Shown here in pieces: positions 25,645-26,578 of a stretch of DNA of 64,000 bases. The notes below the pieces were generated by a model. That model saw nothing but the letters and a program-made list of their open reading frames with translations. It searched no databases and was not told where the DNA came from. The position numbers were made by a program, and so were the translations under genes. The stretch lies in assembly GCA_023818965.1 (NCBI GenBank), contig JAMWCD010000003.1:1-64000 (forward strand), written 5' to 3'. The first letter of the stretch is position 1. Every line of letters begins with the position of its first letter. The stretch is from Candidatus Omnitrophota bacterium. GTDB lineage: Bacteria > Ratteibacteria > UBA8468 > B48-G9 > DTJG01.

Positions 25645-26578
25645 ATGCTACAGAGTCGACTTGCAGAACTTATCAGACAGAGAAAACCATCGCTCGGAGG
25701 ATGGATAAACCTGTGTGACCCAGCCATAGCAGTAATAATGGCTCATGCTGGATACGACTGGGTTTTGATTGACAATGAACACAATCCATTCACAGAAACA
25801 CAGATTCAATCCATAATTTATGCTATCAGACCAACCTCAGTAACACCAGTCATCAGGGTCAGGGGAAATGACCCATCACATATTAAGTGGGTGCTTGATT
25901 CAGGAGCAGGTGGAATCATGGTTCCTATGATTGAAAACATTGAGGACGCAAAAAAAGCAATTTATTATTCAAAATATCCACCTGTTGGAAATCGTGGATA
26001 CAGTCCTTTGCGTGCAACTGATTTCTGGACATTCAAAAAAGAATATGAAGAAACAGCCAATAGAACAATCCTTTTGATATGCCAGATAGAACAGTTTTCT
26101 GCTGTGAAAGACATAGAAAAAATCGTGCAGCTTGATGGAATTGATGGAATATGGATCGGGTATACAGACCTTGCTTTTTCAATGGGATTTCAGGGAAATT
26201 TCAAACATCCTGAAGTACAAAAAGCAATTGAAAAAGTTATTGAAACTAATTTGCCGTCAAAATTATAGGAATACCGAATTGAGTTCGCCAGAGAGCAAGG
26301 CGGCAAGGAGAAGGCAACGAGGCATACTGATGTATGTTGAGGAAGCCGACGACGCAGCCAACGATGCTATATGGATGAAATCAATTCGGTATGAAATTGC
26401 AAATAAATATCAAAAACCATGGGGTATGCCTGCCCAAACACCAGAAGATTTTGCAAAAATGATCGGTAAAGGAGCATTGTTGATGATTTCAGGCTCAGAT
26501 TCATCTTTTATCACTGCTGGTGCTTCAGAAAGAGTAAGACAATGCCGCGATGCAATTATGAAAATCAAAAATACTTAA
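25645..26578 (+). pseudogene. HpcH/HpaI-type aldolase interrupted by a small insertion
   Basis: The first 200 codons encode a normal HpcH/HpaI (2-keto-3-deoxy-sugar acid/4-hydroxy-2-oxoheptanedioate) aldolase: LGGWINLCDPAIAVIMAHAG, DWVLIDNEHNPF, GAGGIMVPMIEN, GNRGYSPLRA, QIEQFSAVKDIEKI and GIWIGYTDLAFSMG. The frame then stops at 26268. The missing C-terminus (NKYQKPWGMPAQTPEDF, ISGSDSSFITAGASERVRQ) continues from 26393 in another frame to a TAA at 26576-26578. Deleting 26242-26392 joins GTTATT to GAAATTGCAAAT exactly in frame. The truncated 207-residue product lacks the end of the barrel and is probably inactive. Confidence 0.88.
26245..26392. mobile_element. Small non-autonomous palindromic element (MITE/REP-like)
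   Basis: The element has perfect 12-bp terminal inverted repeats, ATACCGAATTGA (26271-26282) and TCAATTCGGTAT (26381-26392). Its interior is visibly richer in G and C than the surrounding genes and contains a hairpin core, CATAC-TGAT-GTATG. GAA occurs on both sides of the 148-base insert (26242-26244 and 26393-26395), which fits a 3-base target duplication. The 26 bases from 26245 to 26270 lie outside the inverted repeats but must have arrived with the insertion, because removing them is needed to restore the frame. It encodes no transposase. Confidence 0.75.

Follow-up and report, generated by a model that had tools for sequence, protein, structure and literature searches.

The known system closest to the element described here is that of Geobacter metallireducens, in which 24 copies were named "predicted short RNA elements" in 2009 (PMC2700814, Additional file 4). 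These elements are multicopy, intergenic and form a hairpin. The palindrome published for their centre, GRCGTAGCGCTGCTACGCC, equals the reverse complement of the middle part of two Geobacteraceae copies in our collection (L117 and L127). The Geobacter metallireducens elements appear to belong to the same hairpin family. The copy at our locus carries a homologous apical stem, GGCATAC/GTATGTT, in place of GRCGTAGCGCTGCTACGCC. The Geobacter group and the Ratteibacteria share one core structure, and a single covariance model finds both (its alignment, A1, holds three Desulfobacterota copies). The elements differ in that those of 2009 were described as RNA, whereas the version in Ratteibacteria carries a left end of 26 nt and is located within a gene. 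Within our partial coverage of the literature (PMC2700814), no description of the 2009 elements as mobile or as flanked by a target duplication was found.

Four other systems invite comparison. ERIC (127 bp; PMC2759123) is similar in size and likewise an imperfect palindrome, intergenic and non-autonomous, with no known mover, but it differs in sequence and hosts; the element here has no Rfam match. The Chunjie MITE of Geobacter uraniireducens is also multicopy and disrupts a metabolic operon (PMC10969869); it measures 178-235 bp. The palindromic elements of Rickettsia are about 150 bp long and lie within genes, but they are read through in frame (PMC10969869), whereas the element here brings a stop codon. 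REP sequences, with their RAYT (TnpA-REP) enzymes, are dispersed hairpins with strand polarity. The hairpin here is much longer, its target is duplicated, and no Y1 transposase is linked to it.

Results

The element and the interrupted aldolase gene

The window, the whole stretch of DNA analysed, comprises 64,000 nt (bases 1-64000 of contig C4) from a genome of 1.38 Mb in 12 contigs that is estimated to be 65% complete. All features are given on the + strand, except the target-site duplications, which have no strand. An HpcH/HpaI aldolase gene is split into a 5' part (25645-26243) and a 3' part (26395-26578), as evidenced by the reading frame (for the 3' part, the rejoined frame), the profile match and the orthologues. 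Between the two parts lies a mobile element of 148 nt (26244-26391), flanked by TGA on the left (26241-26243) and on the right (26392-26394), a target-site duplication of the type TNA. The right duplication was placed by flank comparison, frame restoration and the TNA count. The original prediction gave the correct length of the insert, but its boundaries had to be revised to those given here, the base after TNA belonging to the element. The GAA that it took for the flanking repeat is the TGA duplication in a reading shifted by one base; as a 3-bp duplication, GAA was rejected, its third base agreeing in only 3 of 11 copies.

Removal of 151 bases restores, as predicted, a single 260-aa frame that encodes a complete aldolase. 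The rejoined product matches PF03328 HpcH_HpaI (E 2.6e-35) and shows no gap at the junction when compared with HpaI 4b5s. Empty sites were sought in relatives and found: six congeneric orthologues, 68-74% identical, lack the element, are open over 258-277 codons and have no gap at the junction. Sequence and covariance-model searches revealed no element copy in any other genome of the same genus. Given the intact orthologues in six congeners and the lack of the element in the other same-genus genomes, the insertion is lineage-specific and the copies are young. The element almost certainly landed recently, its target being a TGA triplet close to the 3' end of the aldolase gene. The interrupted frame stops at a TAG within the element (26266-26268), after 207 residues. 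Judging from this truncation at residue ~207, the inserted copy very probably inactivates the aldolase.

The element begins with an asymmetric left end of 26 nt (26244-26269; consensus TACTAATTTGCCGTCAAAATTATAGT) and continues as a structured core (26270-26392), a hairpin whose purine internal loops are conserved. The base of the hairpin is formed by the perfect 12-bp inverted repeat that had been predicted, with the left arm ATACCGAATTGA at 26271-26282 and the right arm TCAATTCGGTAT at 26381-26392, the latter placed by repeat search and covariation. The repeat can be extended to 16 nt at 94%, and the last base of the right arm (26392) doubles as the initial T of the right TGA. The 26 bases that had been noted as unexplained are present, and they are the element's own left end: they occur in all 11 copies of the genome and in diverged copies from genomes of the same order and class, and are recognizable in other genera. 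The outer ends, TAC..AATTTG and TACCGAATTG, are alike only in part. When all flanks were compared, the copies followed one format, TNA followed by [T]ACTAATTTGCCG... on the left and ...CAATTCGGTA followed by TNA on the right. In size and ends the element corresponds to a MITE, a class of non-coding elements shorter than 500 bp with terminal inverted repeats: it is 148 nt long and non-coding, with hairpin arms.

Copies and target-site duplications

Ten more full-length copies (95-99% identity) were found in the same genome, which makes 11 with the window copy (95-100% identity). Eight of the 11 lie on the G-rich strand, and the replication-strand bias was not significant. A match to ACTAATTTGCCGTCAAAATT at C12:278614, with 2 mismatches and no hairpin after it, was set aside as chance. 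The absence of any second copy and the presence of the same interruption in all relatives had been named as arguments against a mobile element; both were checked, and neither was the case.

Among the 27 Ratteibacteria copies with a recognizable left end, equal TNA triplets stood on both sides in 15; across 10,000 shuffles the mean was 5.0 and the maximum 13. The Geobacterales copies are without the 26-nt left end. In the 35 of them with recognizable ends (T[AT]CC...GG[AT]A), an exact TNA duplication was present in 24 (shuffled mean 10.2, maximum 19; 20,000 shuffles), and the middle base agreed in 24 of the 24 with TNA on both flanks. The insertion rule, duplication of TNA, is the same in the Ratteibacteria and the Geobacterales. 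ERIC is reported to insert at TA, whereas the element here inserts at TNA.

Several copies depart from the common form. Two loci of genome G008 (L046 and L053) hold solo left ends, TATACTAATTTGTAGTCAAA(T/C)TT, without a hairpin, possibly remnants of excision or deletion; one of the two lies just before an apparent ribosomal protein S11 gene. Tandem or partly duplicated hairpins, with a short repeated spacer derived from the right flank, occur at L034, L016 and L142 (G016 and G015). At L028 and L041 (G024), the hairpin is interrupted or replaced by repeat-rich sequence of the ATTCCCTC...GAGGGGA type, which looks like the insertion of another element into the first.

Structure of the hairpin

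The 50 cores in alignment A1 are drawn from genomes of the Ratteibacteria class and from two Desulfobacterota MAGs, the latter contributing three copies. The RNAalifold structure of these 50 copies has 30 pairs, in which 92.9% of the cells are paired and 26 pairs show two-sided changes. The covariation score was 0.481, compared with 0.216 for shuffled alignments and at most 0.10 for slid partners. The helix formed by the 12-bp arms covaries, with two-sided changes in 8 of 8 pairs. The apical stem-loop, GGCATAC-TGAT-GTATGTT (26321-26338), is evident from the fold and from compensatory changes in columns 57-77 of A1. The internal loops contain several unpaired purines that vary little or not at all. 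In genome G015, the outer arms vary in sequence among copies while their complementarity is kept.

The predicted hairpin was borne out by RNA folding, with none of 200 shuffles equally stable. The window strand folds at -51.4 kcal/mol (z -5.7; 151 nt), compared with -37.4 kcal/mol (z -3.1; 148 nt) for the complement. Among the paired cells of A1, G-T (85) exceeds A-C (33). Because of this excess and the lower folding energy, the window strand is taken as the folding strand. The covariation, the near-invariant purines, the G-T excess and the folding energies together indicate selection on the structure of one strand, whether in RNA or in single-stranded DNA.

Distribution and gene context

Covariance model R1 was built from the 50 cores, including the three of Desulfobacterota. 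In the window's phylum (Ratteibacteria/Omnitrophota), it detected the core in 12 of 35 genomes, with up to 31 copies each. In the order to which the Geobacteraceae MAG JAMXLF belongs, 41 of 58 genomes held the core (up to 46 copies), so that the matches reach far past the three Desulfobacterota copies in the model. The same core lies on contigs of Candidatus Ratteibacteria and Omnitrophota MAGs. The hairpin family is mobile in at least two distant bacterial groups, at T-any-A sites. Rfam yielded nothing at gathering score and only weak, chance-like matches; plasmid and phage searches returned no copies; and no viral contig had the left end or the Geobacterales core, the two 19-mer matches there being unrelated. 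A second hairpin subfamily, GGAACGCG...CGCGTTCC with GTCAAGGCG...CAACGCAGAGATTGCG, was observed at L200-L208 (G061 and G062). It matches the model weakly and shares its Desulfobacterota genomes with the main family.

Most copies examined are intergenic, often between convergent genes, and they occur in both orientations relative to neighbouring transcription. By crude ORF calls, the gene read towards the element has its stop codon precisely at the right duplication in 13 copies (L029, L135, L021, L024, L032, L034, L162, L144, L145, L157, L158, L027 and L164); at L157, the element apparently sits where a stop and a start codon overlap in ATGA. The intergenic and stop-codon placement can be explained by short gaps between genes together with selection against disruption. 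On this view, the window copy, which interrupts a gene, is an exception to the usual placement.

Search for a mobilizing enzyme

The transposase that was expected to recognize the ends of the element was sought but not found. No gene for PF01609, PF01797 or PF13358 was detected in the element's own genome, which at 65% completeness gives weak evidence of absence. Nor did this genome contain inverted pairs of the end sequences 0.5-3 kb apart, and hence no autonomous candidate. The transposase loci of relatives showed neither the element nor matching ends. Further results for DDE and Y1 transposases are given below with the explanations on which they bear.

Discussion

We conclude with high confidence that the element belongs to the palindromic, ERIC-like sort of non-autonomous MITEs and has a structured core. 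This rests on the 11 copies in its own genome, the TNA duplications, the empty congeneric sites, the covarying core and the occurrence of the same core and duplication in Geobacterales, and it upholds the original prediction of a miniature, non-autonomous mobile element in a coding gene. The element is dispersed, its boundaries are precise, TNA is duplicated, and its structure is under selection. MITEs usually keep their ends conserved while the interior drifts; in this family, selection acts across phyla on the structure of an internal hairpin, and the arm sequences differ between copies of a single genome.

The IS1031-like group duplicates TNA, and the 3-bp TNA duplication and the short similar ends (TAC..AATTTG and TACCGAATTG) would suit an origin by deletion from a DDE insertion sequence whose transposase still serves the element, such as an IS1031-like member of the IS5 family. 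We regard this as a reasonable possibility that falls short of an even chance, because no DDE_Tnp_1 gene was found in G000, G016, G019 and G024 (the window's genome being incomplete), the DDE genes of G008, G015, G028 and G033 have no matching ends around them, and the conserved part is the inside, not the ends alone, unlike in a simple IS derivative. The strand-specific hairpin and the Y1_Tnp genes in several element-bearing relatives could instead suggest movement of a single-stranded DNA hairpin by an HUH/Y1 transposase of the IS200/IS605 or RAYT type. Insertion of IS200/IS605 produces no target duplication, whereas TNA is duplicated here. Moreover, no Y1 gene was found in the window's incomplete genome or in G008, G019 and G024, all of which hold element copies, and no element lies within 1.5 kb of the Y1 genes, which makes this mode of movement very unlikely.

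The strong covariation and the strand preference would also be expected if the hairpin were mainly a regulatory or structural RNA, or a terminator, of the host, and its dispersal a by-product. The frequent intergenic placement, often between convergent genes, and the annotation of the 24 G. metallireducens copies as predicted short RNAs in 2009 (PMC2700814) point the same way. We consider this improbable, since the copies stand in both orientations to neighbouring transcription, the aldolase site is species-specific and gene-breaking, and the TNA duplications mark insertion events. A regulatory role could exist on top of mobility.

For the MITE, we propose that an enzyme encoded elsewhere would cut at the TAC and GTA ends and, acting in trans, would insert the element at a TNA cut with a stagger of 3 nt. 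For its spread or persistence, the element probably needs the hairpin of the window strand, as RNA or single-stranded DNA. The 26-nt left end may have arisen from an ancestral TACC...GGTA element, of the form still present in Geobacterales, that sat at TAA, an end-like TACTAATTTG sequence 26-28 bp upstream then being taken up as the new left terminus. Most of the diverged copies have a buried TAA before the inner TACC (TAA followed directly by TACC), which fits this origin. A broader idea, which we put forward only tentatively and think rather unlikely to hold in full, is that in these cross-phylum mobile hairpins the strand-specific inner structure, with its invariant purine mismatches, is a mobility signal at TNA that is recognized by a perhaps host-encoded enzyme, the outer arms being free to change if they pair.

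The family, whose Geobacter members have carried a putative small-RNA annotation since 2009, is now seen to be mobile, with one TNA rule in two phyla. The question of what moves it, and of why the hairpin is needed, becomes testable. For Geobacterales, the interpretation of repeats that number dozens per genome is corrected.
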